Shown in pieces: positions 16,981 to 38,586 of a stretch of DNA of 64,000 nt. Under the pieces are notes generated by a model. It did not search any database, was not told the DNA's origin, and saw nothing but the letters and a program-made list of their open reading frames with translations. Location of the stretch: contig NZ_SMGG01000003.1 of the NCBI RefSeq assembly GCF_004339245.1, positions 151,106 to 215,105 of the forward strand. The letters run 5' to 3'. The stretch comes from Seleniivibrio woodruffii. Lineage in GTDB: Bacteria; Chrysiogenota; Deferribacteres; Deferribacterales; Geovibrionaceae. Both the position numbers and the translations under genes were made by a program. The stretch's first letter is position 1, and each line of letters opens with the position of its first letter.

Positions 16981-17918
16981 CAGACTACCAGAAGCATCTT
17001 GTTGAAAAATTCAAAGTAAGTTCTTTCGATGATTTCTATGCTTTTCCTCTGTTCTTCGAACTGGAAACAGTAAACGTATGCAACGCCAGATGCTCAATCT
17101 GCACCATCAACGAATGGAAGAGTGAAACTCCTTTCATGGAAGATGACTTATTTTTCAGACTCGCAGACGAAATAAACAGCCATTCCGACACCGTCAGGAT
17201 AGTCAACCTGAGCAGAGACGGCGAACCGTTCCTTGACAGCGGTCTGGAAGAACGGATAGCCTATTTTAAAAAGGGCGGGATAAAGTTCACAACACTGTCC
17301 ACAAACGCCGCACTGCTGAACGAAAAACGCATCCTGTCCGTTCTGGCCTCAGGACTTGACGACATAATGTTCTCTGTTGACGGAGCTACAAAGAATACAT
17401 ACGAAAACATCCGCATAGGTCTTTCATTTGAAGAGGTCACTGAGAATATCAGAAACTTTATACGCCTCAGAAACGCTTCCAACAGCAGCACGTCGGTCAG
17501 AATACGCATGGTGATGACACCCGAAAACATGCACGAAGCTGATGATTTCAAAAAGATGTGGCAGGACGTAATAGGCTCCGGAGATAAAATACAGATGAAA
17601 CACCTGCACAGCTGGGGAAACCAGCTTCAGGGTTTTAATGCCGTTACCGAATATGAAAAGATATATACTCCGTGCAGTTCGCCTTTTACCACATGCATCA
17701 TCAAGTCTGACGGCGAAATAATAGTATGCCCTGTGGATTTCAAGCGAAAACACATCAACGGCAGCATCATGGAAAAGAGTATAGCCGAAATATGGAAAAA
17801 CGGAAAAGAACTGAACGCTTTCAGGCAGATACATCTCGAAGGCGGCAGAAACGATATCCCCATGTGTGAAAAGTGCTTTCTATGGGATGCTGATATCTCA
17901 AAGGTGGACATGACATGA
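16977..17918 (+). CDS. Radical SAM/SPASM domain protein
   Basis: 313 residues. Cluster motif C35-NAR-C39-SI-C42, a NLSRDGEPFL segment where GGEP is usual (R-D-G-E-P), and C-terminal cysteines typical of SPASM (TPCSSPFTTCIIKSDGEIIVCPVD ... PMCEKCFLW). The first glycine of GGEP is replaced by Asp. It overlaps its neighbours by four bases on each side. Reaction unknown. Confidence 0.85.
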   Translation: MTDYQKHLVEKFKVSSFDDFYAFPLFFELETVNVCNARCSICTINEWKSETPFMEDDLFFRLADEINSHSDTVRIVNLSRDGEPFLDSGLEERIAYFKKGGIKFTTLSTNAALLNEKRILSVLASGLDDIMFSVDGATKNTYENIRIGLSFEEVTENIRNFIRLRNASNSSTSVRIRMVMTPENMHEADDFKKMWQDVIGSGDKIQMKHLHSWGNQLQGFNAVTEYEKIYTPCSSPFTTCIIKSDGEIIVCPVDFKRKHINGSIMEKSIAEIWKNGKELNAFRQIHLEGGRNDIPMCEKCFLWDADISKVDMT

Positions 17919-19150
17919 AACAGGACAGAAAACTGACTGAATGCCGAATGTGCGGCAGCAGAAATATCATAGAGACAGTACGTTTTGCAGACGTCCCCTT
18001 CGGAGATAATTTTCACAAAGACCCGACCGGCGCAAAGACCGAAGAACTGCACGAACTGGCACTGGTTCTGTGTGAAGACTGCGGCAACGTTTTTCTGAAT
18101 ATTCTGGCCGATATAGAATCGATATACGAAAGGTATATCTACAGAACTTCAGTCTCTCAGGGGCTGGGCAACCATTTTGCCGGGATGGTGGCTGACTGCA
18201 TGCAGAAACGTAAACCGGATGCCGAATTCGTTGTTGAGATAGGAAGCAATGAAGGCCTTGTTCTTGAGGAATTCAAACGCTACGGAGTAAGAGTTCTCGG
18301 GATTGAGCCATCACCCGTTGCCTGTTTTGCTAAGGAAAGGGGAATCCTCACCCTCAAAGAGTATTTCACCTCCGGATTGGCAAAGCAAATCGTCGGCGAA
18401 CACGGCAAAGCAGATTTCATAATAGCTGCAAACGTCCTTGCCAACATACATGATCTGGACGATATAGCCGAAGGCTGCCGGACACTTCTTAAAGACGGCG
18501 GCGAACTGATAATCGAAAGTTCTTATTTCATGGCGGTGCTGCAAAACAATCTCATCGACACCATCTATCATGAGCATCTCTCCTACTTCACAATAACCGC
18601 CATAGGCAATTTCTTCAGAAAACACGGAATGGAACTGCACGACTATGAGATAAACAGCTCAAAGGGAGGCTCTGTCAGGTATTTCATTAAAAAAGGGTTT
18701 CCCGAAAACGGATTCAACCCGAAAATATCGAATGCAATACTGAAAGAACGTGAAGACGGGCTTTTTGACCCGCAAAAACATGACATGCTCAACAGAAACA
18801 CCGAAAAAATGCGCAGAAATCTGGAATTTCTGCTGAAAGACGGCAGAGAAACCGTTGTTTACGGTGCGTCAGTCGGTATTGTCACGATGATATACCTGCT
18901 TAACCTGAAAGATAAAATCCGGTTTATAGTAGACGATAACCCCATAAAAACAGGGACATTCAGTCCACATGCCGCACTGGAGGTAAAATCTCCTGAAATT
19001 ATCCGTGAAGGCGGGTATAGAGTTATAATATGTGCATGGCGGTTCATCGACAGCATCGCAGAAAGGCAGCCCTTCATAAAGAATGCCCGTGATATATACG
19101 TCACAGATCTGCCCTCTGCGGAAATAAGGGAATGGAGCGGAAATGTCTGA
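17915..19150 (+). CDS. Sugar C-methyltransferase family protein
   Basis: 411 residues in the three-part layout of NDP-hexose C-methyltransferases: an N-terminal zinc site (C10, C13, C53, C56), a SAM-binding core (V-EIGSNEGLVLEEF, GIEPSP), the diagnostic IYHEHLSYF motif, and a C-terminal Rossmann-like domain from about residue 309 (VVYGASVGIVTMIYL, FIVDDNP). These enzymes add a methyl branch to a keto-sugar carbon (e.g. TylCIII in mycarose synthesis). This implies a branched-chain sugar in the product. The C-terminal domain has relatives elsewhere in this island. Confidence 0.88.
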   Translation: MKQDRKLTECRMCGSRNIIETVRFADVPFGDNFHKDPTGAKTEELHELALVLCEDCGNVFLNILADIESIYERYIYRTSVSQGLGNHFAGMVADCMQKRKPDAEFVVEIGSNEGLVLEEFKRYGVRVLGIEPSPVACFAKERGILTLKEYFTSGLAKQIVGEHGKADFIIAANVLANIHDLDDIAEGCRTLLKDGGELIIESSYFMAVLQNNLIDTIYHEHLSYFTITAIGNFFRKHGMELHDYEINSSKGGSVRYFIKKGFPENGFNPKISNAILKEREDGLFDPQKHDMLNRNTEKMRRNLEFLLKDGRETVVYGASVGIVTMIYLLNLKDKIRFIVDDNPIKTGTFSPHAALEVKSPEIIREGGYRVIICAWRFIDSIAERQPFIKNARDIYVTDLPSAEIREWSGNV

Positions 19151-19874
19151 CAAAAAACTCTGCCTCATAATCGGCGGCTCGAAAGGTACAGGACTTGTTG
19201 CTGCAAAGCATTATCTGGCAAACGGATGGGAAGTTGTGTCCGCTTCAAGAAACCTGCCGGAAAAACCGGCCGATGGGATACGGTTTCTCACGCTTAAGGA
19301 CAGCAGCAGTGATTCATGCCGCAAGGTTCTGAATATGCTGGGGCAGCCTGTTGACGCTGTCATCTTCTCGCAGAAGTTCAGAGGCGCAGGCGACAGTTGG
19401 GCAGGCGAGCTTGATACAGGAATGACCCTTACAAAAAATATGATAGAGACGGCCGCAGATGGTTTTTTTGCATCCAAAGCCTCTGTTGTAATAATTGGTT
19501 CAGCCGCTCAGGATTTTTATGCGGAGGAACAGCCTGTATCCTACCATGCCGCCAAGGCTGCTCTGGCTCAGATGGCTGTTTATTATGCAAACTCTCTCGG
19601 AAAGAAAGGCGTAAGGGTAAACGGCATTCTATGCGGAGCGGTAAAAAAACCTGAAAATACAACATATTATGAAGACGAGAAGATGAAGAAAATCTATGAA
19701 ACAATATCACCTCTGGGAAGAATGTGTGAAGCGGAGGATATAGCAGGTGCCGCTTTTTTTCTTACCGGCAGTTCTGCATCATATATAACAGGTCACGTGC
19801 TGAAAGTAGATGGAGGGATCTCCACCGTTTCCCACGAAAGTCTGGTAAAAAAAATCTGGGACATTAAACGATGA
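19143..19874 (+). CDS. Short-chain dehydrogenase/reductase
   Basis: 243 residues. The cofactor motif is G11-GSKGTG, with S120, Y134 and K138 (YHAAK) forming the catalytic set and a C-terminal GHVLKVDGG. It is only distantly similar to the SDR at 15587. It follows the C-methyltransferase with an eight-base overlap, so reduction of a C-methylated keto-sugar is a reasonable guess. Such a ketoreduction follows C-methylation in known deoxysugar pathways. Confidence 0.86.
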   Translation: MSDKKLCLIIGGSKGTGLVAAKHYLANGWEVVSASRNLPEKPADGIRFLTLKDSSSDSCRKVLNMLGQPVDAVIFSQKFRGAGDSWAGELDTGMTLTKNMIETAADGFFASKASVVIIGSAAQDFYAEEQPVSYHAAKAALAQMAVYYANSLGKKGVRVNGILCGAVKKPENTTYYEDEKMKKIYETISPLGRMCEAEDIAGAAFFLTGSSASYITGHVLKVDGGISTVSHESLVKKIWDIKR

Positions 19875-21010
19875 ACAAATATATCGAATATTACTCAAAA
19901 AAGAACGTTTCACCCGTAAAACAGGATATCAGCGACATCAGCGGCCATATTGAAAGACGTCTGGCTCTCTACAGACTGCTGGGAGTAACCCCTGCAACAC
20001 TGAAAGGCTCAAGAGTGCTCGAGGTTGGACCTGGCAGCGGGTATAACTCAGTGGTGACAGCCAGTTGCAAGCCCGCCGAATATTCTCTGGTCGAACCTAA
20101 CCTGACCGGATACCGGGAAATGCTGGAGCTTTTCGGCAGATTCGATTTTTCAGGAACCCGTCTGTCTTTTAACAACGTCACGCTTGAAAATTTCAATGAA
20201 AAACCTTTCGACGTGGTTCTCTGCGAGGGGCTTATCCCCGGTCTGGACGATAAAGCCGGATTCCTGAAAAAACTTACGTGTTTTGCAGAGGACAAAGGCT
20301 CTGTACTTGTTATAACCTGCATCGACACCATAAGCATATTTTTTGAAAACGCACGACGATATCTTGCAAAAAAGATAATCGACAAACATGGTATAACCGA
20401 TTTTGACAAACAGGTGGATCATCTCTGCGTCATTTTTGAAAAGCATCTTAAAACTTTAAAAGGGGTCACCAGATTCACCACGGACTGGGTTATCGATGCT
20501 ATCCTGAACCCTGCGGCGGCAAACCACGACTTCTCTTTCAGAGATGCCATGGAGGTTCTGAGGGATGATTTCTTCTTTCTCGGCGCATCACCCGACATTT
20601 TCACCAATACCGTCTGGTACAAAAATCTGCCGCACGACCCCAAAGACTACAACAATATATACGAGACCCAGTTCGCCGAGCTCTGGCATAACCTTATCCA
20701 CTACAAGATCAGTGAACAGCCCAGAGAAGCGGAGAAAAACATAAAACTTTTCAATATCTGCACCGAGTTCAATGATGCCATTAATAAGAATATATTCGAA
20801 AATGCAGACAACGACGGAAAAATCATCAGCCTCCTCTCTGATGCCGCTGAGAATCTGAGTTCAGCCGCAAATGTTTATGAGGCAATACGTCAGTTTACGG
20901 ATATACTCAATTCAGAATGTTTCAACGCAGACGAGATGATGCAGAAATATCCCCTGTTCTGCGAAGCGTTCGGAAGAGGGCAGCAATATTTCAGCTTTGT
21001 GAGGAAATGA
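19871..21010 (+). CDS. SAM-dependent methyltransferase with C-terminal extension
   Basis: 379 residues. V49-LEVGPGSGYNS is a clear SAM motif, and FDVVLCEGLIPGLDDK follows in the motif II/III region. The last about 190 residues are a helical extension without a recognised domain. It overlaps the upstream SDR by four bases. The next gene's ribosome site (GAGGA) sits at its very end. Target unknown. Confidence 0.75.
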   Translation: MNKYIEYYSKKNVSPVKQDISDISGHIERRLALYRLLGVTPATLKGSRVLEVGPGSGYNSVVTASCKPAEYSLVEPNLTGYREMLELFGRFDFSGTRLSFNNVTLENFNEKPFDVVLCEGLIPGLDDKAGFLKKLTCFAEDKGSVLVITCIDTISIFFENARRYLAKKIIDKHGITDFDKQVDHLCVIFEKHLKTLKGVTRFTTDWVIDAILNPAAANHDFSFRDAMEVLRDDFFFLGASPDIFTNTVWYKNLPHDPKDYNNIYETQFAELWHNLIHYKISEQPREAEKNIKLFNICTEFNDAINKNIFENADNDGKIISLLSDAAENLSSAANVYEAIRQFTDILNSECFNADEMMQKYPLFCEAFGRGQQYFSFVRK

Positions 21011-22638
21011 TGAAAAAACTTCTGGTTACAGCCGTTTGGGGCAGGACATATTTCGACACTTTTTTAAAATTCTGCCTGCCGAGTCTGTTGTCACCGGAAA
21101 ACCTCCCTTCGCTGAAGCCTTACAGCGAAAATTTCTTCGCAATCTGTACCACAAAAGATCTCTGGGACTATTTCCTTACAACCGAAGCATATAAAAATGT
21201 TTCAGAGTATGCTGTTCCCGTTTTTTATCCGGTTGAGGAACATCTTAATAAAAAGTACGACACCACAGGCAACTTAACCTATGCTGTCATGACAGCTGTT
21301 CACAACGGGGTCATGCTGGAATACCAGAACGACTACGCATATGTATTCGTAATGCCCGACACTCTCTGGTTCGATGGAGCACTCTGCAATGTTCTGAAAC
21401 CGCTGAACGAGGGAAAAAGAGCGGTCTATGCATTCGGAATGCATCTGGACATGGGTGCGCTGGAAAAATATACGGCAAATATGACGAATGGCGTCATTAA
21501 GATTTCATCCGAACAGACCTGTTCGCTTACATTAAAAAACCTTCACGGCATATCAGAAAGCTCATTGATAAACTCAAAAAACTTCATAGCAAACGGAAAT
21601 TTCTACATTTCCGATGAAGACAGGACAACAGCCGTACTCAAAATGGCATACCTGACACCTGCCGTGGTCTACCCCTATAAAAAGCTGATCCCGGTAAAAC
21701 CGGAACAGACCATCGATAACGGCAGTTTTGTGAATGACAACATAGACGACCAAAACCTGATAAGCATAATCTCCGACTCACGGGAGTTTATAATGATAGC
21801 CATCGACTCTCAGGAAACAAAGCCATGGGGAGCGGGCAGCAGAGGAATAAATTATCTGGACGTAGCTTTCTATGTCTCCAGATACATTGCGGACTACGCC
21901 TTTGATTTCTATAAGCATTCATGCCGCATATATACCGGACAAAAAACTGACGGACACGAAGCTTTGCAGGAAAAACTGGAATCCTTTATGAATAAAGTCC
22001 GTCTTGTTCTGAAATATAAGCAGTTCTTTTACGACTGGCATGAGGTTCAGCTGGAAATTATCCGCAAAAATGATGTTGGCCTTCATATGAAAAATATAGC
22101 CGATCTGTTCAGCAACCTTTTAAACGATGATGAAATATATTCCTGTCTGAACATAGACAGAGCCGATGCTCAAAGATATCTGCAAAAGCTGCTTTCGGCA
22201 ATTAATGATGAAAACATCAGATACATGGACTTTTTTAACACAACAAGGTATATCATGAACCTGTTCGGCAGCGGTGAGTTTTTCCAGAGCCTTCTTGATG
22301 AATACCGCAAAGGTTCGGAGCTGATTGATGAATTCACGGAAAAATCTGTTCCGTTTTATATTTTTTCAGCAGGGGACGACACCAGAATGTATCTGAAAAT
22401 GTTCGGCCTCTCTAATAAAAACGTAATGGCCATCATTGACGACAATCCGAAATACGAAGGTACGACTCTGAACGGTATACCGGTTATAAAAACACCGCAG
22501 AATCCGGAGAACTTAAACGATGCCGAAAACATCATTATAATATCAACAAAATTCGGCAGTGTTATTTACAACAAGCTTATGGAACTGGGATACGAAAAAG
22601 CCGGCTTCCATCTGCATATTATTCGAAGACATGTCTGA
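21010..22638 (+). CDS. Putative glycosyltransferase-like protein with C-terminal Rossmann-like domain
   Basis: 542 residues. The N-terminus (VTAVWGRTYFDTFLKFCLPSLL and later VFVMPDTLWFDG) resembles a poorly characterised family often found in glycan clusters, with possible GT-A character around the PDT segment; this is tentative. A helical middle follows. From about residue 448 (FYIFSAGDDTRMYL, IIDDNP, GIPVI) there is a Rossmann-like module shared with three other island proteins. The GAGGA ribosome site favours ATG 21010; ATG 21007 is possible. Confidence 0.6.
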   Translation: MKKLLVTAVWGRTYFDTFLKFCLPSLLSPENLPSLKPYSENFFAICTTKDLWDYFLTTEAYKNVSEYAVPVFYPVEEHLNKKYDTTGNLTYAVMTAVHNGVMLEYQNDYAYVFVMPDTLWFDGALCNVLKPLNEGKRAVYAFGMHLDMGALEKYTANMTNGVIKISSEQTCSLTLKNLHGISESSLINSKNFIANGNFYISDEDRTTAVLKMAYLTPAVVYPYKKLIPVKPEQTIDNGSFVNDNIDDQNLISIISDSREFIMIAIDSQETKPWGAGSRGINYLDVAFYVSRYIADYAFDFYKHSCRIYTGQKTDGHEALQEKLESFMNKVRLVLKYKQFFYDWHEVQLEIIRKNDVGLHMKNIADLFSNLLNDDEIYSCLNIDRADAQRYLQKLLSAINDENIRYMDFFNTTRYIMNLFGSGEFFQSLLDEYRKGSELIDEFTEKSVPFYIFSAGDDTRMYLKMFGLSNKNVMAIIDDNPKYEGTTLNGIPVIKTPQNPENLNDAENIIIISTKFGSVIYNKLMELGYEKAGFHLHIIRRHV

Positions 22639-22653
22639 CAGGAGTTTATTTAA

Positions 22654-24480
22654 ATGGACAACAATTACGGGAGTGTCTGGTCTAACGCCATCAGAGCAAT
22701 CAATGATATTCTCAAAAAGGATATCTCTGATGAATACCGCTTCGGCGAAATTCTTTCGACCGGATTTTTTACTCAGCTCACATCATATAAAGACCCTGAG
22801 TTCAACGGCAGTCTGACCGACTGGTACATCGATTTTCTCAAAAACGAATATGTATTCAGCATAGAAAACCTGCCCGATGCTTCACAGGAGGCATCCTTCT
22901 TTCCTGAACATCTTCTGGTCAGGCGCAACGGAATGCTCCTCAGCACCGATATGCTCAGGTATGTTGCATACTGCCTGAAACTGAAGGAAAACAGCACAAA
23001 AATCGGAACTGTCCTTGAAATAGGCAGCGGATACGGCGGATTTGCCAGAATAATGAAGGCGTTCACTCCTGACGTCAGGATATGTCTTACTGACATTAAT
23101 GAGTCCCTGAAATGTGCCGAGATATACCTGAGAAAATCATGCCCTGAAGCAAGAATATCATGGGATATAGCGGATGCCGATGCCGACTTCATTCTGATAC
23201 CTGTGGAGAATGCTCAGAGAGATCTTTCGGGCAGACAGTTTGACCTCGCAGTCAATATCTGGTCTCTTGGTGAAATGCCCGACGCATATACATCTTTTTG
23301 GATGGATCTCATTCAGGCAGGACACATAGAACGTTTTTTCACCATCAACTCCTTCATGGCTCCCGTGGTGTACGGAACGTCCGACAGAACCGGAATCGGC
23401 AACTGGCTTTTCAGGATTGACGAAAAATGGGAAATAGAATATTTCGAAACCGACCCCAAGGTACATCAGTGCCCGCTAATCATGGATTTTCCCAAAGGAG
23501 TGGCAATAATAGGCCGCAGGACACGCTTGGACAGCGAACTTTCTCAGCTGAAAAAGGCCGCAGAAAGACGTTTTCAGCCTGTTTTGCAATATGACTGGGT
23601 CAGATCGGCCCTGTCCGGCTGCAAGCTCGACGACGGAACGTATGACATCACAAAGTTGTCAATGTCCGTGGCCGAAAGGACACGCTCCTATATTGGCCAT
23701 TTCCGGATCGGTTCAGGCATCGATGACACTTTTTTCCGCATATGGGATCATTACAGGCACACCGGAGACAAGCTTCCGGCATCACTCATGGTCGTCTATC
23801 TCTCGCTTGCAGGCAGATTCGGCAGAGGAGAGTGCTCAAAAGAGGAACTGATACTTCTGAAAAAGCTGCCGAAAGGGCATCTCCATAAGCACTATTCAGT
23901 TTTCCTTAACGAAAAGACGCAGGATACGATTACTGCATACGGCAGAATCCTCAGCATACAAAGTGCATGCGATGAAGCCATCCGGTTTCTGGATAGCGGC
24001 TCTCTTGACAAAGCTCAGGAGTTATTTTTCCAAGTCGCCTCAGCCAATCCCCAGCATGCCGACGTATGGCACTATCTGTCCCGAATAGCCATGAATAAAA
24101 AGGACTATGCGGCAGCATCGGCTTATGCCGCACACGTCTGCTTCCTATATCCGGTTTACCGCACATACCACGAATCATTCTTCAATGCGGTTGAACTGCT
24201 GAAAAATAAACGTCCGGATATGCAAGGTATCCTATCGGACAGGATTCCTCCGACAGCCTTTGCAACTCATGCATATGAATGCCACCTGCGCCAGACTGAG
24301 AAGGATATGGGTTATCAGGAAGGCTTTCTGCTTATGATTTTGGCCGGAGATGGCCGTCTGTATTTCAAATCAATGGCCGAAAAATGCCGCAACGAAAACC
24401 TGCATATGCAGGCAGATGCATTTGAGAAGGCATACGTGCGCTACAAAATCAGACAGCACAAAAAAACAGATCCGGAATAA
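22654..24480 (+). CDS. Putative sugar O-methyltransferase with C-terminal TPR-like region
   Basis: 608 residues. The SAM motif V120-LEIGSGYGGFA and the surrounding layout match a family annotated as putative sugar O-methyltransferases. After about residue 320 the protein becomes helical. A tetratricopeptide-like stretch (SLDKAQELFFQVASANPQ, then ADVWHYLSRIAMNKKDYAAA) suggests a protein-protein contact module. It lies 15 bases after the previous gene. Sugar methylation is the most likely role; the TPR part could dock the acceptor or partner transferases. Confidence 0.72.
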   Translation: MDNNYGSVWSNAIRAINDILKKDISDEYRFGEILSTGFFTQLTSYKDPEFNGSLTDWYIDFLKNEYVFSIENLPDASQEASFFPEHLLVRRNGMLLSTDMLRYVAYCLKLKENSTKIGTVLEIGSGYGGFARIMKAFTPDVRICLTDINESLKCAEIYLRKSCPEARISWDIADADADFILIPVENAQRDLSGRQFDLAVNIWSLGEMPDAYTSFWMDLIQAGHIERFFTINSFMAPVVYGTSDRTGIGNWLFRIDEKWEIEYFETDPKVHQCPLIMDFPKGVAIIGRRTRLDSELSQLKKAAERRFQPVLQYDWVRSALSGCKLDDGTYDITKLSMSVAERTRSYIGHFRIGSGIDDTFFRIWDHYRHTGDKLPASLMVVYLSLAGRFGRGECSKEELILLKKLPKGHLHKHYSVFLNEKTQDTITAYGRILSIQSACDEAIRFLDSGSLDKAQELFFQVASANPQHADVWHYLSRIAMNKKDYAAASAYAAHVCFLYPVYRTYHESFFNAVELLKNKRPDMQGILSDRIPPTAFATHAYECHLRQTEKDMGYQEGFLLMILAGDGRLYFKSMAEKCRNENLHMQADAFEKAYVRYKIRQHKKTDPE

Positions 24481-24485
24481 CAGAC

Positions 24486-25277
24486 ATGCACAGACTTGTC
24501 CTCTGCAAAGAAAAAGAAGAATATAAAGATTGTGCCCAGAGCTTTATAGACATGCACAGACTCCACGGCATAAACAGTGCCTTCAGCAGCAGCGGTTCGT
24601 CCGATGAAATAATCCATGCGCTCAAAGCTGAAGGGAGATTTATCTTTGGTTCAGACAAGCCCATTGAACAACAGCAGTTCAGATTTCTGCTGAACCTTCT
24701 GGAAAATACCGAAGACACCGTATATCTTTCCAGAACCGACCTCCCTGAAGATATTGAACTGCCAGCCAGCCTTAAGGACAGGTTTGTGGTCACCCGTTTT
24801 CTCAGCATTGAAAAATACATAAAAATAACAGACTGCTACATCCATTTTTATGACAAAATACTCTTTCAGACCTGCGGGGAAGATCTTAAATGCATAACAG
24901 CCGCAAATCCTCTGAAAATGCCGGATAAAACTGCTCTGGAAGTGTTCGACACTCTGTACGCCACGGCTAAACCGGAGCATATAATGCTCTCTCTTCAGCT
25001 TGACAGGGCAGACTTCACCTCAGGATACGATATTTTCAAAGCCTGCATCGGAGAGCTGATCCCCGATGAGGAGTTCAGCAGGCTGGCAGCCAGCAAAAGG
25101 CGCGGGGCTGATTACATGCTGGAACTTTTCAGGCTTGCCGCAAAATATCCGGCATTAAAAAAGCGTCTGATATCAATTTCGTCCCGAACCATCAGACTCG
25201 CCAGACAGGATATCACTCTTAAAAAGACTGTAAGCCTGTCGGACATACTGTTTGGAAAAGAATCTCAGGAACTGTGA
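24486..25277 (+). CDS. Unrecognised protein, 263 residues
   Basis: I do not recognise this family. The protein is soluble, without signal peptide or membrane segment, and has one Ser/Gly-rich stretch (residues 33-40) and a basic C-terminus (KKRLISISSRTIRLAR). It is placed five bases after the O-methyltransferase gene and one base before the GT2 gene in the same frame direction. The tight packing and codon style like its neighbours argue that it is real and part of the island. Confidence 0.6.
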   Translation: MHRLVLCKEKEEYKDCAQSFIDMHRLHGINSAFSSSGSSDEIIHALKAEGRFIFGSDKPIEQQQFRFLLNLLENTEDTVYLSRTDLPEDIELPASLKDRFVVTRFLSIEKYIKITDCYIHFYDKILFQTCGEDLKCITAANPLKMPDKTALEVFDTLYATAKPEHIMLSLQLDRADFTSGYDIFKACIGELIPDEEFSRLAASKRRGADYMLELFRLAAKYPALKKRLISISSRTIRLARQDITLKKTVSLSDILFGKESQEL

Positions 25278-25278
25278 T

Positions 25279-26412
25279 ATGAAAGAAGATACTGCCGAAA
25301 ATAGAACCATAAGTGTTATAATTCCCGCCTTTAACCGTCCGGAATCTCTCCGCAATTTTTTAGAAACGGTAAAAAAACAGTCTTATAAACATCTTGAGCT
25401 GATAGTGGCCGACGACTGTTCGGACGTTCCTTTGTCCGATGTCGTTGCCGACTATCCCGAAGTCATTTATCTCCGCAATGAAAAGAACCTCGGATATTCC
25501 GCCAACATGATAAATGCCATGAAATATGCATCCGGAGCATTTATCCATTTTGCTTCCGATGACGACGAAATGGGGGAAAGCTGTTTTTTCGAAAATGCAA
25601 TGGAGCGTTTTGACAGCTGTCCCGAAACCGATGCTGTATTCTCCAGACTTGAGATTCTCAGCTGCTACCGCAATATTGTGAACAGAAAAGACTTCAGCGA
25701 AACATTTACTCCAGAAGAGTTCTTTGAAATGCTCAAAAGCATCCGTTTTTCATTTCTCGACTATTTTGCCCTGAGCACATTCGTTTTCAAAAAAGAACTC
25801 CTGCACCTCACAGCCCCGTTTGTAACGGAAACTCCTGAATCAAACTCCATCGACATATCCACAATAATCAAATATACCGCTGCATGCCGCAGGATAGATT
25901 TCATAGACTGCGTCGGATACCGATGGCAAAAGTTCACCCCCGACTCACTCGGTAATGCGAAAAAGGATGATCTGGCCTATCAGACACTCTGCTCTGTTTC
26001 AGCTGTAGTGGATGTTTACCGTCATTTCAACGGCAGCGGAAAATACAAAGATCTGCTGAACGCATATGTTGAATACATTTTTCAGGCCATACTGGCAGAC
26101 TACTACTCTCTGAACATTGAAGAAAAAATAAAGGAGATTCCTGCTGCGGTACGGGGGCAAAGGGTATACGTTTATTGCAGAGGATGGGTTGGTCTGCGCA
26201 TTGAGGACCATCTGCGAAAGAACGGCATAAACATACTCGCCTTTATAGAGGATTTCAAATCTGCAAATGAAGACACCGTCAGCTTTGAAAAATTCCTTGA
26301 AGATGAGCGGCCGTGCACCGTTATAATTGCAAGCACAAAACACAGGGACGTGCTGAACATATATAAAAAGCTGAACAGACTTGCAAATATAACGATTATC
26401 GATCTTATTTGA
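25279..26412 (+). CDS. GT2-family glycosyltransferase with C-terminal Rossmann-like domain
   Basis: 377 residues. The N-terminal part is a GT-A transferase: ISVIIPAFNRPESL, LIVADDCSD, then FASDDDE as the metal-binding acidic motif. From about residue 294 (VYVYCRGWVGLRIEDHL ... FIEDFK ... VIIASTKHRDV) comes the module also seen at 29515, 21010 and 17915. The protein is alignable end to end with the 29515 product, so the two are paralogues. ATG 25279 follows the upstream stop by one base; the longer frame from 25252 overlaps it. Confidence 0.82.
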   Translation: MKEDTAENRTISVIIPAFNRPESLRNFLETVKKQSYKHLELIVADDCSDVPLSDVVADYPEVIYLRNEKNLGYSANMINAMKYASGAFIHFASDDDEMGESCFFENAMERFDSCPETDAVFSRLEILSCYRNIVNRKDFSETFTPEEFFEMLKSIRFSFLDYFALSTFVFKKELLHLTAPFVTETPESNSIDISTIIKYTAACRRIDFIDCVGYRWQKFTPDSLGNAKKDDLAYQTLCSVSAVVDVYRHFNGSGKYKDLLNAYVEYIFQAILADYYSLNIEEKIKEIPAAVRGQRVYVYCRGWVGLRIEDHLRKNGINILAFIEDFKSANEDTVSFEKFLEDERPCTVIIASTKHRDVLNIYKKLNRLANITIIDLI

Positions 26413-26422
26413 GGTTTTGCGG

Positions 26423-28534
26423 ATGAAATTCAGATTTGCTGCATATGACGAACAGGCGGACTACTCCAAAAGAAATATCATATCGTTCATTCACATAGGA
26501 AAAACGGCAGGAATGACCGTTACGGCGGCAATCTCCGCCTGCATGCCCGAATCGGTGGTCTCCTATCCGTTTACAGGATGGCATCACTGGGTCACCGACA
26601 AAAAAAGCCGCCTTATCAAAGAGGTGGATAATATCTACATTTCCGGTCACTTCAGCATAGGGGCATACACCCTTTTCGGTACAGACCGTACTGTAAGAAA
26701 CTATACCTTCCTCCGCAATCCATACAGCCTGGTAATGTCCTTTGACAAGTTCTTCAAAGAACAGCAGTATGCCAGATCTCAGGATCAGGTGGAGATATAC
26801 GCTGTGGAAAGCTATGTGAAAGCACTCGGTGGCGGCTGTTTCGACACAGCCCTTAAAACTCTCTCCGAAACCGTAACCATCACCGGCATAACCGAAATCA
26901 TGGGGAAATCCTTTGAACTGATAGCATACAACCTTAATGCCAATCAGGTTTCCTACGGAAGACACAACTACATAGAAAAGAACGACAACGCTGATATCCC
27001 TGATAAATATAAAAAATATGCCGAAAAGCATATGGCTGAGGATATCGCTCTCTACAGGCTGTCGTGTGAAAAACTGGACAAAATGCACAACGACATTTTT
27101 AACGTAAAAAGATACGCTATTCCCGCTGTCAATTTTTCCAGTGATAACGTATCTTCAATGCCCCATCTTAAAATGTCGGCGAAACTGACGGAATACAAAA
27201 ACGATTCCGAACATCTCGAAAGCCTGATCAACTACTACGAACAAGACAGCTCAGATCCGGTGAGAGCTCAACAGATCGGCCATTTCTATGCCGACAGAGC
27301 CAATGCGGCAGAGGCGGAAAAATGGTATCGAACTGCAACAGCAAATTCCGCCATCTACATTATCGGCCTTCTGAACATGCTGGCGCAACATGACAGGGAG
27401 CAGCAGCTTAAATACCTTTCAGACATCATAAACAAACTGAGCAGCATTAAAACACCGGAAGGTCATTTCACCTATCTGAGTGACTTCAAAAAGCAAATTG
27501 AAAAAATGCTGCCGGAGGATTTCAGCCGGTCGGATAAGCTGTATTTCGCTGATCTCTGGGAAACCATGCATGAAAACGAAAAGGCGGACTTTTTTACTCA
27601 GGTCATCCTCAAGGTCTCTTCCGGAAAAATTCATATCAAAAAAGGCATAGAGGAACTTTTCCCCTTCTGCCTCTCCCGAAGGTTTTCCGATGACAACCTA
27701 TACTGGGCGGGTTTTTTCCTGCATTTTCTCCTCCTTTCACGAAACAGGTCACTTTATGATAAGTTCATCCCCACCGTTCAGAGCAGGATTGAAGAGACTG
27801 TCGACCGATTTCTTAATGAGAAAGCGTGCAGGGAAAAGATAAACGGAGAAAATATTTACAACTTTGCCCTCACAGCTGGATTTCCGGCACCTGTCTATAA
27901 AATCAGCAAATACCTTTCCGAAACCCAGCCGGAGGAGATACACAAAATAAGGCTTCTCAGCAGTATGCTCAGTCTTGGTATGTTCAGAGAAATTCTGGAT
28001 TTCGACGAAAGCACTCTGCAAGAAGCAGATATCATAAAACTGGCAAGACCTATCAGGTATATTGCATCAGGGATGCTGGGAATCGACTGCAAAATGCCGT
28101 CAGATTCAGCGGAACTGCGCAGACAAATGATACTTCAGCCCGTTCAGCCTGACTTTTCAGACAAGCCCGTGAACCTTGTTGTCTGCTGTGGCGACCCGGC
28201 ATATGGCAAAATAGTGAAAGGATTCCGTATCGGCAAAGGTTCAAACATGGTCTCTTTTCTCCCCGCAATATCAGCCGGAAAACATTTTATGTGTGTCCAC
28301 AATCTGACCGGAATTTCCGAAGAACTGGCAGCGGAGTACATTGACGGAAATATGGACACGGTTATTGCCGCAGACCTGCGGGATATCAGAATTCTAAGCA
28401 GAATTTACCACCTTATAGAAAGCAAAGTGAATAAAAAAGTCTATATACGCTTTTTCAGTTACGACGGCAGGATGGAATCCGTCAATGCTGTACTTAACAG
28501 AGATATCTTAGACAGGCTGACTGAAATTAAATAA
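26423..28534 (+). CDS. PAPS-dependent sulfotransferase with long C-terminal helical region
   Basis: 703 residues. The N-terminal 230 residues fit a Sulfotransfer_2-type enzyme: F22-IHIGK27-TAGMT is the 5'-phosphosulfate loop, S74-GHF the following family segment, and F96-LRNP-YSLVMS106 the 3'-phosphate loop with R98 and S106. The enzyme should move sulfate from PAPS to a glycan hydroxyl. The rest is helical, with one TPR-like stretch (RAQQIGHFYADRANAAEAEKW), and ends in an unrecognised domain. ATG 26423 is preferred to TTG 26417 (GAGG eight bases upstream). The PAPS source is encoded 10 kb downstream. Confidence 0.82.
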   Translation: MKFRFAAYDEQADYSKRNIISFIHIGKTAGMTVTAAISACMPESVVSYPFTGWHHWVTDKKSRLIKEVDNIYISGHFSIGAYTLFGTDRTVRNYTFLRNPYSLVMSFDKFFKEQQYARSQDQVEIYAVESYVKALGGGCFDTALKTLSETVTITGITEIMGKSFELIAYNLNANQVSYGRHNYIEKNDNADIPDKYKKYAEKHMAEDIALYRLSCEKLDKMHNDIFNVKRYAIPAVNFSSDNVSSMPHLKMSAKLTEYKNDSEHLESLINYYEQDSSDPVRAQQIGHFYADRANAAEAEKWYRTATANSAIYIIGLLNMLAQHDREQQLKYLSDIINKLSSIKTPEGHFTYLSDFKKQIEKMLPEDFSRSDKLYFADLWETMHENEKADFFTQVILKVSSGKIHIKKGIEELFPFCLSRRFSDDNLYWAGFFLHFLLLSRNRSLYDKFIPTVQSRIEETVDRFLNEKACREKINGENIYNFALTAGFPAPVYKISKYLSETQPEEIHKIRLLSSMLSLGMFREILDFDESTLQEADIIKLARPIRYIASGMLGIDCKMPSDSAELRRQMILQPVQPDFSDKPVNLVVCCGDPAYGKIVKGFRIGKGSNMVSFLPAISAGKHFMCVHNLTGISEELAAEYIDGNMDTVIAADLRDIRILSRIYHLIESKVNKKVYIRFFSYDGRMESVNAVLNRDILDRLTEIK

Positions 28535-28621
28535 AACAGAATCATATTCAGGCACTATACACTTGCGGTAACACGTTTAAACTTATAAAATGGGGTTGCG
28601 TATAAGTCACAACGGTGGAAA

Positions 28622-29518
28622 ATGAAAATACTCATTATTAAACTCGGCTTCTCAGAAACACTTGACCCGGAAATAGGAAAAGTCTCATCTCTGGGAGATG
28701 TTCTGCGAACAACCCCTATATTATATGCCCTTAAAGAAAAATATCTGGATTCAAACATAACATGGCTGACAGACGAATCCGCCGCCCCCCTCCTGCACTA
28801 TAACCCATATATAGACAGGCTTCTTATCTGGGACTCTTTCATCGGATTTCAGCTGATGAGTGAAAGATATGACATTGTAATAAATCTTGAAAAAATAGGC
28901 GGGCTATGCGCACTTTCAAACCATATAAACGCATGGAAGAAATACGGTTTCCGCTTTGACGAAACCACAGGCTCATACGATGTTTACGAAGGCGCTGAAT
29001 ACGCCCTCGACCTCTGTCTGAAACACAACATAAAGAAGAACAACATCCGCATATGGCAGGAAATTCTCGTCGAAATGGTCGGAGTTGAATGGGCTCAGCA
29101 GCCTTATATCCTCGGCTACAAGCCAAAAACAAAAGAGTGCTTTGATGTCGGCTTCAACTATAAGGTGGGAACGAAATTTCCCGAAAAGGCATGGTCAGAA
29201 GAGAGCTGGAAAACACTGGAATCCATGCTGACAGCCGAAAACCGTACATTCAGCTACCAGCAGGGACTCTCTAACCTTTACGAATATATCGACTGGATCA
29301 ACTCCTGTAAAACGCTTATAACATGCGACAGTCTAGGTCTGCATATAGCACTCGCACTAAACAAGACCGTAATAGGCCTTTTCGGCCCGACTAACGCCAC
29401 CGAAGTCTTTTTCTACGGCCGCTCTTCACACATAAAAAAGAACTCCATGCACGAAATATCCCCTGAAGAAGTTTTTACTGAATACCGTAAAGCCGATTAC
29501 AGAGGGGATGCGCAATGA
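28622..29518 (+). CDS. Glycosyltransferase family 9 (heptosyltransferase-like)
   Basis: 298 residues. GT-B protein with the family 9 features ILIIKLGFSETL (short acceptor-side strand), SSLGDVLRTTPIL, and near the end ITCDSLGLHIALALNKTVIGLFGPT, the donor-binding loop of heptosyltransferases. It may use an ADP-heptose or another donor; the sequence does not decide. GGTGGA precedes the start. An 87-base gap separates it from the sulfotransferase, the largest gap inside the island, so a new transcript could begin here. Confidence 0.85.
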   Translation: MKILIIKLGFSETLDPEIGKVSSLGDVLRTTPILYALKEKYLDSNITWLTDESAAPLLHYNPYIDRLLIWDSFIGFQLMSERYDIVINLEKIGGLCALSNHINAWKKYGFRFDETTGSYDVYEGAEYALDLCLKHNIKKNNIRIWQEILVEMVGVEWAQQPYILGYKPKTKECFDVGFNYKVGTKFPEKAWSEESWKTLESMLTAENRTFSYQQGLSNLYEYIDWINSCKTLITCDSLGLHIALALNKTVIGLFGPTNATEVFFYGRSSHIKKNSMHEISPEEVFTEYRKADYRGDAQ

Positions 29519-30654
29519 ACATTAAGATATCCCTTATAACATCAACCCACAACGCATATAATCAGGACTTTTCGGTGCTGGAGAATCTGCTCGACAGCAG
29601 CGGCATAGCTCTGGAAGTAATCCGGGTCAACGATCCCTACGGCAGCTTCCACCTGAATAACATCAACTGCCGGAATATGCGGACAATCACTCCGCCAAAA
29701 GGCCTGGGCTATTTCAACTCACTCCGTTTCGGGCTCCTCCAGACCACAGGAAGCTATATATACTTTCTTTCGGAAGATACAAAGCTGAACGACCTCAGTT
29801 TCTTCTCGCAGGCTGTAAAAAAACTGAATGAAGATGCAGATCTCGTTTTCAGCAGATCAGAGGTCTCCACCGCCGGACACGGAAACTACATTATGAAGCA
29901 TCCGTTCAAGGAGCAGTACACCCCAGCCGAATTTCTTCGTGAGTGGTACAACCTGAGAATGATTTTTGTTGACTATTTCAGCTTCAGCAGCTTCATGTTC
30001 AGAAAAGATATGCTCATGGCAGCGGAAGCCTTTATCTCTTCATTCCCCGATGCTGTCTCGCTGGACACAGCAACAATAATCAAATCCATACTTCTGTCCA
30101 GAAATATAGCTTTTGTGGACTGTGTCACAGCTACAAGACACTTCAGAAGCGGCGGCAGGGATGTCAACGACAAAAGCAACATGACTGCACAGGTGGTCAA
30201 CCATTTTGCTATCCCTCTGGACGTGACCAGCTTCATAAAAAAACTTGATCTCAGCCACGAGCTTATAACCGAGATGAAAACGTTTTTCAACCAATATGCG
30301 GTCTATTCGTTCAACGCAATCACTTCTGATTTCTATCAGACTTCCAATGAGGTGATTTTTGACTGTATGGACTTTGAGGAACTGCTGAAAAACAGAGATG
30401 TTTATATCTACGGCAGAGGCTGGGTCGGACTGGCACTGGTTGAGTATCTGAAAAATGCCGGTATCGGCGTCAGGTCTTTCATTGATGATTTCAAAGCAGG
30501 CGAAGGAATCATAACTTTCGACCAGTTCAAAAACGAAGAACATAGAAATACTTCAGTCATCATCGCCAGTTATAAATGCACTGACGTTTTCAGAATATAC
30601 AAAAAACTCCAGACCGTCGGAGGCCTTAATATAATCGACCTTTTGAGAGCATAA
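29515..30654 (+). CDS. GT2-family glycosyltransferase with C-terminal Rossmann-like domain
   Basis: 379 residues, paralogous to the 25279 product along its full length (shared DYFSFSSFMFRKDML versus DYFALSTFVFKKELL, and VDCVTATRHF versus IDCVGYRWQKF). The GT-A acidic motif is FLSEDTK. The C-terminal module starts near residue 295 (VYIYGRGWVGLALVEYL, SFIDDFK, VIIASYKCTDV). It overlaps the GT9 gene by four bases. The pair suggests two related linkages or residues in the glycan. Confidence 0.82.
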   Translation: MNIKISLITSTHNAYNQDFSVLENLLDSSGIALEVIRVNDPYGSFHLNNINCRNMRTITPPKGLGYFNSLRFGLLQTTGSYIYFLSEDTKLNDLSFFSQAVKKLNEDADLVFSRSEVSTAGHGNYIMKHPFKEQYTPAEFLREWYNLRMIFVDYFSFSSFMFRKDMLMAAEAFISSFPDAVSLDTATIIKSILLSRNIAFVDCVTATRHFRSGGRDVNDKSNMTAQVVNHFAIPLDVTSFIKKLDLSHELITEMKTFFNQYAVYSFNAITSDFYQTSNEVIFDCMDFEELLKNRDVYIYGRGWVGLALVEYLKNAGIGVRSFIDDFKAGEGIITFDQFKNEEHRNTSVIIASYKCTDVFRIYKKLQTVGGLNIIDLLRA

Positions 30655-30656
30655 CT

Positions 30657-33266
30657 ATGATAACGGCATTCGTTCCCACCCTGAACAACGAAAAGACCAT
30701 CGGACGGGTTCTGAAAGCAATAAAGGCGCAGACGGTGAGGCCGAAGCGGATAATCGTCATCGACAGCGGCTCAGCGGACGCAACGGAATCCATCTGTCTG
30801 GATGCGGGTGTGGAGTTCTACCCGAAATCCTATTTCGGCGATTTCGAGATTCTGGGGCTGGGCAGAGCCAGAAACCGTATTCTCGAACTTATCGACACGC
30901 CGTATCTTCTCTCTGTGGACAGCGACATTATCCTGCGCCCCGACCACATAGAAAAGATCCTGCCCATGTTCGCCGAAGACCCAGCCATAGCAGGCATAGC
31001 AGGCAGACAGATAGAGCTGAACCGTATCCACATGGGCGACAAGTGCCGTGCGCTGGTGGACATGCGTGACCTCTACAACGAATCCCGTAAGCTGAAAGAC
31101 GAGTTTCGCCCGTTTCTGATGGGTTCGAACAACATATACAGAACCGATGCCCTCCACATTGTAGGAATGGCCGAGAACGGCAACAAATTCAGGCCGTTTG
31201 AGGACGCATTCATGTCCAACTATGAGGATGCGGATGTTGGCCACAAGCTCACAAAACACGGCTATAAGCTCCTCTGGACGCCCTCCGTGCCGACATATCA
31301 TCTCCAGAAGGACGACGTGCGCTCCTACATAAACAGAGCCTACCGCTACAGGGTCTTCAAATGGCTCCTTAACGGCGGTTTTGAGACGGAAGAGGCATAT
31401 GCGGGCAAGATCGAGCACAACATAAACTACGTCCGGATGGGCATAAACATCATCACTGAAAAACAGCGGTCATATCTGGCCTATCCCTTCTTTCTTGCAG
31501 GTTTCAGCTTTTTCATAGAGGACATACTGCACTTTGAACAGGGACACCCCATGGCACGCAAAATATACAACAGCTTCCTGAAAAGCATGGAACACTGCAA
31601 AAGCGAGGAACTGAAACGGGGCATCCTTGAGTTCAACAGGCTGATACTGGACAACATAACCCTTGAGCGCACCGAGGAATACGACGAGCGCATCCTTGAG
31701 TGGTTCCTGAGCCTTGCCGACCTTTCGGCCTTCCACAAAAAGTTTCCCGCCATGCACGACACAAAGCTTACGGAAACCGATGAGAACACCCGTATCTCCT
31801 GCCTTACAGCCTCAAAAAAGAGGATGGAAGCTGAGGATAATTTAAATATCTACGGCAATTTCAAAGTTATGCTTATGAATCTGCCGTGGCGAAAAGAGAA
31901 CGGCAGATACGGCGTCCGTGCAGGAAGCCGCTGGCCGCACACATACGACATGGGCAGATACGATTCCGCTCTCCCGCCGTACATCCCTTATCCATTCTTT
32001 TTGGGACACACATTCAGCCTGCTCCAGCGGGCGGGGATATCCTCATGGATGTGCGATGCGGTGGCAGAGGGCTACACAGAGGAGGAGGCAATATTTGAAG
32101 CGTTCGGCTACGAACCGAACCTCATAATTGCCGAAGTTTCAGTACCCAGCCTCACAGGCGACCTGAAAACTCTGGCGGACATAAAGGCATTTCTGCCCGA
32201 CACAAAAATATGCATCACAGGTCCTTTACCTAAAGATATAATCGCTCAGCTGGCGGAAAAACCTTTTATAGACCACATAATTGACGGGGAATATGAGTTC
32301 GCCGCACTTAAACTGGCACAAGATCTGAAGCACAAACGTATGACGCAGAAAACAGTCCCCATGGAGCGGCAGGACGACTACGCTCAGCTTCCCGTTCCCG
32401 AAAGGCTGTTCACCCCGTTTTACAACTACAACGACAGACCCGTTGCGGCTCTAAAATACCCGTCTCTACAGATACAGCTCTCCAGAGGATGCCCGTTCGG
32501 CTGCTCCTTCTGCGTTCTGCCGTCGGTTTTCTACGGCGACAGATACCGAAAAGGCGACATAGTTAAAGCTGTAAACGAGATAGAAAAAAACTTTAAAACA
32601 TTCGGCATACAGTCCTTCTATGCGGACGACGACACATTCAACGTGGACAAACGCCATGTTGCAGCATTCGCTCAGGAGCTTATCGACAGAGGGCTGAACC
32701 TGCCGTGGATGGCTATGGCAAGAGCCGACACTCTGAACGACAAAGAACTTCTTACCCTTCTGAAACAGTCGGGGCTTATCGGTCTGAAATTCGGCATAGA
32801 GAGCACAAATCAGGCCGCACTGGCTGAAATGAACAAAAAGCTGAATATAGAAAAATGTCAGGAGACCTTTGAAATATGCAGGGAGCTTGGCATAGGGATA
32901 CATCTGACTTTCACTCTGGGCTATCTGGCGGACACGCCTGTTACTGCGGAAAACACCTTCCGCTGGCTGATAGGGCAGAATCCCGACTCCATGCAGGTGT
33001 CGCTGACCATCCCCTTCCCCGGCACGCCCATGTTTGACACCCTCAAGAATATGAACGTTCTGACCGATATGAACATGGACGGTTACGACGGTGCCGATAA
33101 CCTCCCCTTTGAAACACCCATGGGGCGTGATAGAGTAAAACTGCTGAAACAGCAGTGGATTGCGGCATGGCTTGCATTTAAAAAAGGCGAAAGGACAGAG
33201 GCCTCTCAGCTGACTGCATTCAGCGATCCCCATGGCCTGTCCGAATATATAGGGAGCAGACTTTGA
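30657..33266 (+). CDS. Fusion of GT2 glycosyltransferase and radical SAM (class B-like) enzyme
   Basis: 869 residues. Residues 1 to about 330 are a GT-A family 2 transferase (TAFVPTLNNEKTIGRVLKAI, IDSGSAD, D88-S-D90 metal motif, FLMGSNNIYR). Residues about 395-560 look like the Rossmann domain of B12-binding radical SAM proteins, but D467-AVAE-G472 replaces the DxHxxG cobalamin motif, so B12 binding is doubtful. Residues about 600-810 are a radical SAM core with C612-PFG-C616-SF-C619 and MAMARADTL. I know of no common protein with this combination. It starts two bases after its neighbour's stop. Confidence 0.85.
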   Translation: MITAFVPTLNNEKTIGRVLKAIKAQTVRPKRIIVIDSGSADATESICLDAGVEFYPKSYFGDFEILGLGRARNRILELIDTPYLLSVDSDIILRPDHIEKILPMFAEDPAIAGIAGRQIELNRIHMGDKCRALVDMRDLYNESRKLKDEFRPFLMGSNNIYRTDALHIVGMAENGNKFRPFEDAFMSNYEDADVGHKLTKHGYKLLWTPSVPTYHLQKDDVRSYINRAYRYRVFKWLLNGGFETEEAYAGKIEHNINYVRMGINIITEKQRSYLAYPFFLAGFSFFIEDILHFEQGHPMARKIYNSFLKSMEHCKSEELKRGILEFNRLILDNITLERTEEYDERILEWFLSLADLSAFHKKFPAMHDTKLTETDENTRISCLTASKKRMEAEDNLNIYGNFKVMLMNLPWRKENGRYGVRAGSRWPHTYDMGRYDSALPPYIPYPFFLGHTFSLLQRAGISSWMCDAVAEGYTEEEAIFEAFGYEPNLIIAEVSVPSLTGDLKTLADIKAFLPDTKICITGPLPKDIIAQLAEKPFIDHIIDGEYEFAALKLAQDLKHKRMTQKTVPMERQDDYAQLPVPERLFTPFYNYNDRPVAALKYPSLQIQLSRGCPFGCSFCVLPSVFYGDRYRKGDIVKAVNEIEKNFKTFGIQSFYADDDTFNVDKRHVAAFAQELIDRGLNLPWMAMARADTLNDKELLTLLKQSGLIGLKFGIESTNQAALAEMNKKLNIEKCQETFEICRELGIGIHLTFTLGYLADTPVTAENTFRWLIGQNPDSMQVSLTIPFPGTPMFDTLKNMNVLTDMNMDGYDGADNLPFETPMGRDRVKLLKQQWIAAWLAFKKGERTEASQLTAFSDPHGLSEYIGSRL

Positions 33267-37484: not shown

Positions 37485-37697
37485 ATGTTTAAGGAAACCA
37501 CCACACGATCAGTTCTGAAAGCCGTTTCATGGAGGTTTTTCGGAACGATGACCACTATGATAATCGTATATGTCATGTTCCGCAGAATAGACCTTGCGGT
37601 CTTTACAGGGATTCTTGAGACACTCTCAAAGATAGCCCTGTATTTCGTCCACGAACGCATCTGGAACAAAATCCCCATCGGCAAGAACAATGAATGA
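37485..37697 (+). CDS. DUF2061 small membrane protein
   Basis: 70 residues with the family's [15 protein letters not shown] motif, one or two hydrophobic segments (about 19-33 and 37-52) and the closing [18 protein letters not shown]2061 genes are often next to cysD/cysNC-type genes in sulfation or polysaccharide loci, as here; their function is unknown. It starts one base after the DUF354 stop and overlaps cysD by eight bases, so it is part of the PAPS unit. Confidence 0.85.
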
Positions 37698-38586
37698 TAT
37701 GAGCTATCTGGACAGGCTTGAGGCCGAGAGCATCCACATAATCCGTGAAGCCGCCGCAGAGGCGGAAAAGCCCGTTATGCTCTACTCGATCGGCAAGGAT
37801 TCGTCCGTAATGCTGCATCTGGCAATGAAAGCCTTCCATCCTGCAAAGCTCCCCTTCCCTGTTATGCACGTCGACACCGGCTGGAAATTCAGAGAGATGA
37901 TAACCTTTCGGGATGAAACTGCGAAACGTCTGGGGCTTGACCTGATAGTCTATAAAAATCCCGAAGGCGAGGAACAGGAGATCAATCCTTTCACCCACGG
38001 AAGCAGGATACATACGGACGTTATGAAGACCGATGCCCTGAAACAGGCTCTGAACCTCCACGGATTCGATATGATATTCGGCGGAGCAAGGCGGGACGAA
38101 GAGAAGTCACGGGCAAAGGAACGCATTTTCTCATACAGAGACACTAACCACAGGTGGGATCCGAAAAATCAGCGTCCGGAACTCTGGACGCACTACAACA
38201 CAAAACTTAACAGGGGCGGCAGCCTGCGGGTTTTCCCCCTTTCCAACTGGACGGAACTTGACGTCTGGTTCTATATCCTGCGTGAGAATATCCCCGTCGT
38301 GCCGCTTTATCTGGCAAAACAGAGACCCGTTGCGGACGTTGACGGCGTGCTCATTATGGCCGACGATGACAGGCTTCCTGAAAAATATGAGATAACCATG
38401 CAGTCGGTGCGTTTCCGTACACTGGGGTGCTACCCGCTTACGGGAGCAGTCCCTTCCGAAGCATCAACCCTTGAACAGGTCATAGAGGAGATGATGATGT
38501 CCTCCATGTCTGAACGGCAGGGACGTGTCATCGATTTCGACCAGTCCGGAGCGATGGAAAAAAAGAAGACGGAAGGCTATTTCTGA
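37690..38586 (+). CDS. cysD: Sulfate adenylyltransferase subunit 2
   Basis: Makes adenosine 5'-phosphosulfate from ATP and sulfate together with the CysN GTPase. 298 residues. The PP-loop is S33-IGKDSS, followed by [34 protein letters not shown] and the conserved [11 protein letters not shown] block. It is followed directly by the cysN-cysC fusion (ATG overlaps the stop). No PAPS reductase or sulfite reductase gene lies in the window, so the sulfate is more likely bound for sulfation than for cysteine synthesis. Confidence 0.95.

Follow-up and report, generated by a model that had tools for sequence, protein, structure and literature searches.

Four proteins encoded within 64,000 nucleotides of Seleniivibrio woodruffii DNA (the window) end in similar sequences. 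Are these C-termini one and the same domain, and what would such a domain do on a methyltransferase, on glycosyltransferases and on a protein of a family without a Pfam model? The initial annotation placed a shared module at residues 309, 448, 294 and 295 of a sugar C-methyltransferase (C-MT), of a protein starting at position 21010 and of two GT2-like proteins (GT25279 and GT29515). These starts were correct within three residues (309, 445, 292 and 292). The described pattern of strand, G-rich turn, helix, DD motif and later strand was present in four of four copies, which read strand, G-rich turn, helix, (F/I)(I/V)(D/E)D and VIIAS-type strand.

The module-bearing enzymes and their locus

The four genes (Table 1) belong to a glycan gene cluster of ~32 kb (8476-40454) that is bordered on both sides by housekeeping genes and encodes radical SAM enzymes, methyltransferases, epimerases, GT9 and GT2 glycosyltransferases and, at its right end, sulfate-activation proteins. 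The host belongs to the family Geovibrionaceae (Deferribacterota), and a scan of genome contigs led to one Denitrovibrio locus, that of Denitrovibrio sp. BM704, as the closest locus of a named relative. Immediately downstream of GT29515, positions 30657-33266 encode a single 869-aa protein with a GT2 and a radical SAM domain; Denitrovibrio has the same fusion (L056, 6521-9127). A 705-aa protein (26417-28534) carries a sulfotransferase-like HIGKTAGMT motif at its start and has no Pfam match, and genes of the CysD and CysN/C type (37690-40454) close the cluster. The motif and the sulfate-activation genes together suggest that the product of the cluster is a sulfated glycan.

Table 1. Module-bearing proteins of the window and their module copies
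Feature	Position	Strand	Remarks
Sugar C-methyltransferase (C-MT), TylC3/TcaB9/MtmC type, 411 aa	17915..19150	+	PF08421, PF13489, PF08484
Module copy 1 (C-MT residues 309-399)	18839..19111	+	VVYGASVG loop; IVDD (D340-D341); VIICA strand
21010 protein, 542 aa	21010..22638	+	N-terminal ~340 aa without Pfam match
Module copy 2 (21010 residues 445-536)	22342..22617	+	IFSAG loop (first Gly replaced by S453); IIDD (D477-D478); IIIIS strand
GT25279, GT2 glycosyltransferase, 377 aa	25279..26412	+	PF00535 2.6e-24, above cut-off; GT2 motifs ADD, SDDD canonical
Module copy 3 (GT25279 residues 292-377)	26152..26409	+	YCRGWVG loop (first Gly replaced by C300); FIED (E324-D325); VIIAS
GT29515, GT2-like, 379 aa, paralogue of GT25279	29515..30654	+	PF00535 1.2e-4; GT-A fold matches
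Module copy 4 (GT29515 residues 292-376)	30388..30642	+	YGRGWVG loop; FIDD (D324-D325); VIIAS; site intact

C-MT consists of a Zn domain, a SAM domain and a C-terminal domain that matches PF08484 at 1.7e-18, a combination found in the window at 17915-19150 only. It is a full-length relative of the D-mycarose and TcaB9 3-C-methyltransferases (1.7e-61 against structure 4rv9; ~1e-39 against TcaB9 over residues 8-403), and its C-terminal domain is therefore the normal one for this enzyme, as had been proposed. For the 21010 and 25279 proteins the lengths given are those after correction of the start codons. The N-terminal part of the 21010 protein (21010-22020; VTAVWGxxYxxxFLxxCLPxLL...) belongs to a family without a Pfam model that is common to module-bearing proteins of distant bacteria; the same architecture occurs at L054, L055 and L069, and the family also in proteins of G113 and G254. 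It may be a GT-A-like transferase. GT25279 belongs to GT2 by sequence, and GT29515 by a PF00535 match of 22.5 bits, slightly below the cut-off of 23.3, together with a GT-A fold match at 7e-10. The two GT2s being paralogues, the idea of one module on four different enzymes stands as to the module, with three rather than four enzyme types.

The four C-termini are one homologous domain

Pairwise BLOSUM alignments gave uneven results: C-MT against GT25279 scored at the level of shuffled sequences, and C-MT against GT29515 scored above all 1000 shuffles. We then used a profile of 38 modules from which the GT2, C-methyltransferase and 21010 classes had been left out. It was run against 1212 sequences, that is, all window ORFs of at least 60 aa plus their reversed and shuffled versions. 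All four proteins were retrieved (E values of 6.7e-11 for 21010, 7.1e-10 for GT29515, 9.7e-8 for GT25279 and 3.7e-5 for C-MT). The best E value beyond them was 0.55 among the 1212 sequences, decoys included, and no fifth copy was detectable by this search among window ORFs of at least 60 aa.

Profile-profile comparison had been proposed as the check on the four regions. With three to seven sequences per class, hhalign gave 34% for GT2 against C-MT and 18% for GT2 against 21010. With larger classes, C-MT against 21010 gave 98.6% (P 6e-16). The direct comparisons of GT2 with C-MT (53-70%) and with 21010 (33-69%) were weak (P 5e-4 to 4e-5), and the link of the GT2s thus runs via third classes. 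GT2 matched other module classes at 93-96% overall, among them the PglD_N class (94.7%, 6e-8), the winged-helix class (95%, 3e-8) and the GT8/GT4/sulfotransferase class (96%, 1e-9); the PglD_N class in turn matched 21010 at 98.3% and C-MT at 96.1%. As controls, SAM-methyltransferases stayed below 6% and SDR proteins below 53%. TrkA, a related Rossmann domain, scored 92% with one of the module classes over ~35 columns; short G-loop matches by themselves are therefore not decisive.

Two of the four copies were folded with AF2, the module of 21010 (pLDDT 81; alignment of six sequences) and GT29515 (pLDDT 76; alignment of four sequences). The order of strands and helices was identical in both models, in agreement with the expectation that the predicted folds would match. 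Each model alternates beta and alpha elements, with a glycine turn after strand 1 and an acidic end of strand 2; in GT29515 the order is E295-300, H303-314, E319-323, H335-339, E346-351, H355-366 and E371-375. The leave-class-out profile, the hhalign comparisons and this common fold order show that the four C-termini are one homologous domain. The rival view, that the copies merely look alike as Rossmann folds do and share no close ancestor, would fit the shuffle-level scores of some pairs and the fact that Pfam recognised the module in neither of the two GT2s. Nevertheless, we regard it as highly improbable, since the leave-class-out profiles and the hhalign matrix set the module apart from the SDR and SAM Rossmann controls of the same window.

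Distribution and partner domains

Relatives were gathered from our own seeds, and the sample is not random. At least one copy of the module (E 1e-6) was present in 63 of 385 sampled genomes and in 53 of 319 genera, and one locus frequently held several copies. The module is joined, at either end, to diverse surface-glycan enzymes and to winged-helix regulators. Among 113 module-bearing ORFs, the Pfam partners were GT2 (19), winged-helix (10), radical SAM (9), hexapeptide acetyltransferase (9), FkbM (8), CoA_binding_3 (6), Polysacc_synt_2 (5), MptE-like (4) and several SAM methyltransferases; single scans further showed fusions to GT8, GT4 and sulfotransferase domains. A look at other glycan enzymes, as had been recommended, therefore yielded the module on radical SAM, FkbM, MptE-like, GT8, GT4 and further proteins. 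The view that it is unexpected on glycosyltransferases was not supported: GT2 is its commonest partner in this sample, and a glycosyltransferase is thus an ordinary host of the module. No module was found on viral contigs, and the matches on plasmids span the GT2 part only. A literature search returned no account of the module on glycosyltransferases, which does not prove absence. The domain type itself is known under three names, but its presence on the window GT2s and in the 21010 family escapes Pfam at cut-off.

Some of the fusions are more elaborate. At L032/L033 (G003, G004) and L139 (6142-8406), radical SAM, sulfotransferase and module are combined in one protein of ~754 aa, which adjoins two module-bearing GT8-like proteins. 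MarR-type winged-helix proteins with the module occur at L010/L058, L068 and L071, and several more were found in the census; the protein at L010 adjoins a DegT-type aminotransferase gene. It is possible that these MarR-type proteins form a family of nucleotide-sugar-sensing regulators.

A tree of 54 modules (96 columns) left the deep branches without resolution. One clade of 12 modules (99/99), mostly from single loci of three sister species, occurs on six catalytic types, a sign of domain shuffling. The GT2 modules of the window type, five in number, group separately in a clade (99/98).

The two window GT2s most likely inherited the module jointly. Their identity is 30% over the catalytic part and 46% over the module. 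Among GT2 paralogue pairs overall the module (37-48%) is about equally or better conserved than the catalytic part (30-40%), and in several pairs its identity is the higher, so that the module appears to be under selection. The exception is Denitrovibrio L015, where the module has decayed (16-21%) and the GT part is kept (30-39%); the module is thus not essential to every GT2. GT29515, with its intact module, reads SEDTK in the DxD region where others read SDDD. Its Denitrovibrio counterpart (L056, 5377-6528) reads SHES and also has an intact module; an in-frame TAA interrupts the gene in that MAG. From these few sequences, the sister GT2s could have divided the labour among themselves.

The putative ligand site and relation to known systems

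The module is a compact half-Rossmann domain of ~85-95 residues, of the PglD_N / CoA_binding_3 / Methyltransf_14 (NeuD-like) type. The likeness to this superfamily extends over the full length and is significant. Against solved structures, the module profile matched 3nkl, the domain of a UDP-D-quinovosamine 4-dehydrogenase, at 3.9e-9, PglD at 1.1e-5 and PglB at 5e-5, and the 21010 module matched NeuD_NnaD at 5.2e-4 over residues 449-511. The FIDD of the module profile aligns with Asp35-Asp36 of PglD. In Pcryo_0637, a relative of PglD, the N-terminal domain is a UDP-binding platform in which Asp40 touches the ribose and Asp41 the uracil, and the phosphates are contacted by the main-chain amides of Ala75 and the glycine loop (PMC8040287). 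We infer that Ala75 corresponds to the VIIAS position of the module. By this correspondence, the motifs seen in the four proteins are, at the level of sequence, the ligand loops of the UDP-binding PglD family.

Conservation agrees with this assignment. In 104 copies the first Asp was present in 100 and the first Gly in 101; the aromatic residue before the Gly is also conserved, and the helices are variable. Conservation thus coincides with the ligand loops, which favours a ligand site over a docking surface. A docking or assembly module, making homotypic contacts or binding a common partner among the enzymes of one locus, with the nucleotide pocket as a relic, would account for the clustering of copies in one locus per genome (four in 12 kb in the window, six in 17 kb in G011, four in 9 kb in G008 and in G010, four in 4 kb in G113), for the 12-module clade, and for the two window copies that lack the near-invariant glycine and retain the rest of the domain. 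However, a single copy is all that many of the sampled genomes contain, and the winged-helix fusions are more readily explained by a ligand. Together with the variable helices, this makes docking rather unlikely in our view, although it is the alternative that we take most seriously.

The fold search raised a different ligand. The full GT2 model gave only glycosyltransferases among its 50 best Foldseek matches, and the module was therefore searched with the 21010 model. The top match was 3nkl, with biliverdin reductase and Rex repressors (TM 0.56-0.65) close after; no match reached an E value of 1e-3 or better, and PglD was absent from the best 50 matches listed. Like Rex-type and CoA-binding domains, the module might thus bind or sense another nucleotide, e.g. 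NAD(H) or CoA, and tune glycan synthesis to the state of the cell. Rex was also marginal in sequence searches, and the winged-helix proteins with a module are Rex-like in architecture. On the other hand, the PglD_N/NeuD matches were better than Rex in sequence (PglD at 1e-5; Rex absent at 0.1), the D(D/N) pair is as in PglD, and the module, which terminates the protein, falls short of a full dinucleotide-binding domain in length: its ~90 aa offer space for one nucleotide. We consider this second alternative unlikely.

On balance, we think that the module would hold the NDP end of a nucleotide sugar beside the catalytic domain. As in the PglD-family acetyltransferases, it would meet the phosphates at its glycine loop and at the end of strand 4, and would hold ribose and base through the DD pair that closes strand 2. 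In C-MT, it would be the NDP-sugar substrate that the module positions. For the GT2s, the prediction is an additional nucleotide(-sugar) site, distinct from the GT-A donor site, that either takes a nucleotide-linked acceptor or serves in sensing. The winged-helix fusions (10 of 113) suit a ligand sensor. That the modules bind a common sugar nucleotide, as had been suggested, is plausible by homology to PglD, and the idea is not equally valid for all four because two copies have altered loops. The first Gly is missing from only three of the 104 copies, those of GT25279, 21010 and one sister-species GT2, which has Phe there; GT25279 has in addition lost the first Asp, and 21010 has kept its DD. 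C-MT and GT29515 have both residues. NDP-sugar binding is therefore a best guess for the modules of C-MT and GT29515 and a weaker one for GT25279 and 21010, whose modules probably have another mode of binding or none.

A wider reading would have one mobile nucleotide-sugar module shuffled across the surface-glycan tool set (GT2, GT4, GT8, radical SAM, sulfo-, methyl- and MptE-like transferases, and regulators), with many enzymes engaging the same nucleotide-linked intermediate. The sister GT2s would then split the work, GT25279 with a normal active site and an eroded module and GT29515 with an intact module and an altered DxD. We give this little credence. Apart from that reading, the three Pfam domains PglD_N, CoA_binding_3 and Methyltransf_14 make up one module family with the tails, so far without annotation, of numerous glycosyltransferases, and the re-use of this single domain with many catalysts illustrates how glycan loci diversify. 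If the module does bind nucleotide sugars, a second ligand site can be predicted for many uncharacterised glycan enzymes, and an assay of the module alone could assign their substrates.

How does the module compare with its known relatives? The Rossmann domain of Rex has a similar predicted fold, and some module relatives share its wHTH plus Rossmann architecture; its sequence is less similar, and it is a larger domain that binds NADH. PglD_N (PF17836; NeuD/PglB/VioB acetyltransferases, TIGR03570) shares the compact alpha/beta form, the glycine turn, (F/L)(I/L)DD and the fourth strand. However, known copies are N-terminal to a left-handed beta-helix, whereas the window copies are C-terminal to GT2, methyltransferase and 21010-family domains, and the GT2 modules lack the Ser of the GASGHG loop. 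Pfam found no Hexapep (left-handed beta-helix) match in the four window proteins, which are therefore not PglD-type acetyltransferases. Methyltransf_14 (PF08484; TcaB9, MtmC) includes C-MT as a full member and is the class to which the 21010 module is so closely linked; its classical members L045 and L046, in contrast, read VCDA..KQG without a DD pair, and the family, at 160 positions, has additional sequence absent from the GT2 modules. In membrane proteins, the CoA_binding_3 domain (PF13727) of CapD/WbpM-type dehydratases is followed by an SDR domain. Through 3nkl it is the top match of the module by both sequence and fold, and it differs in its place, upstream of the SDR domain there and C-terminal in the window proteins.
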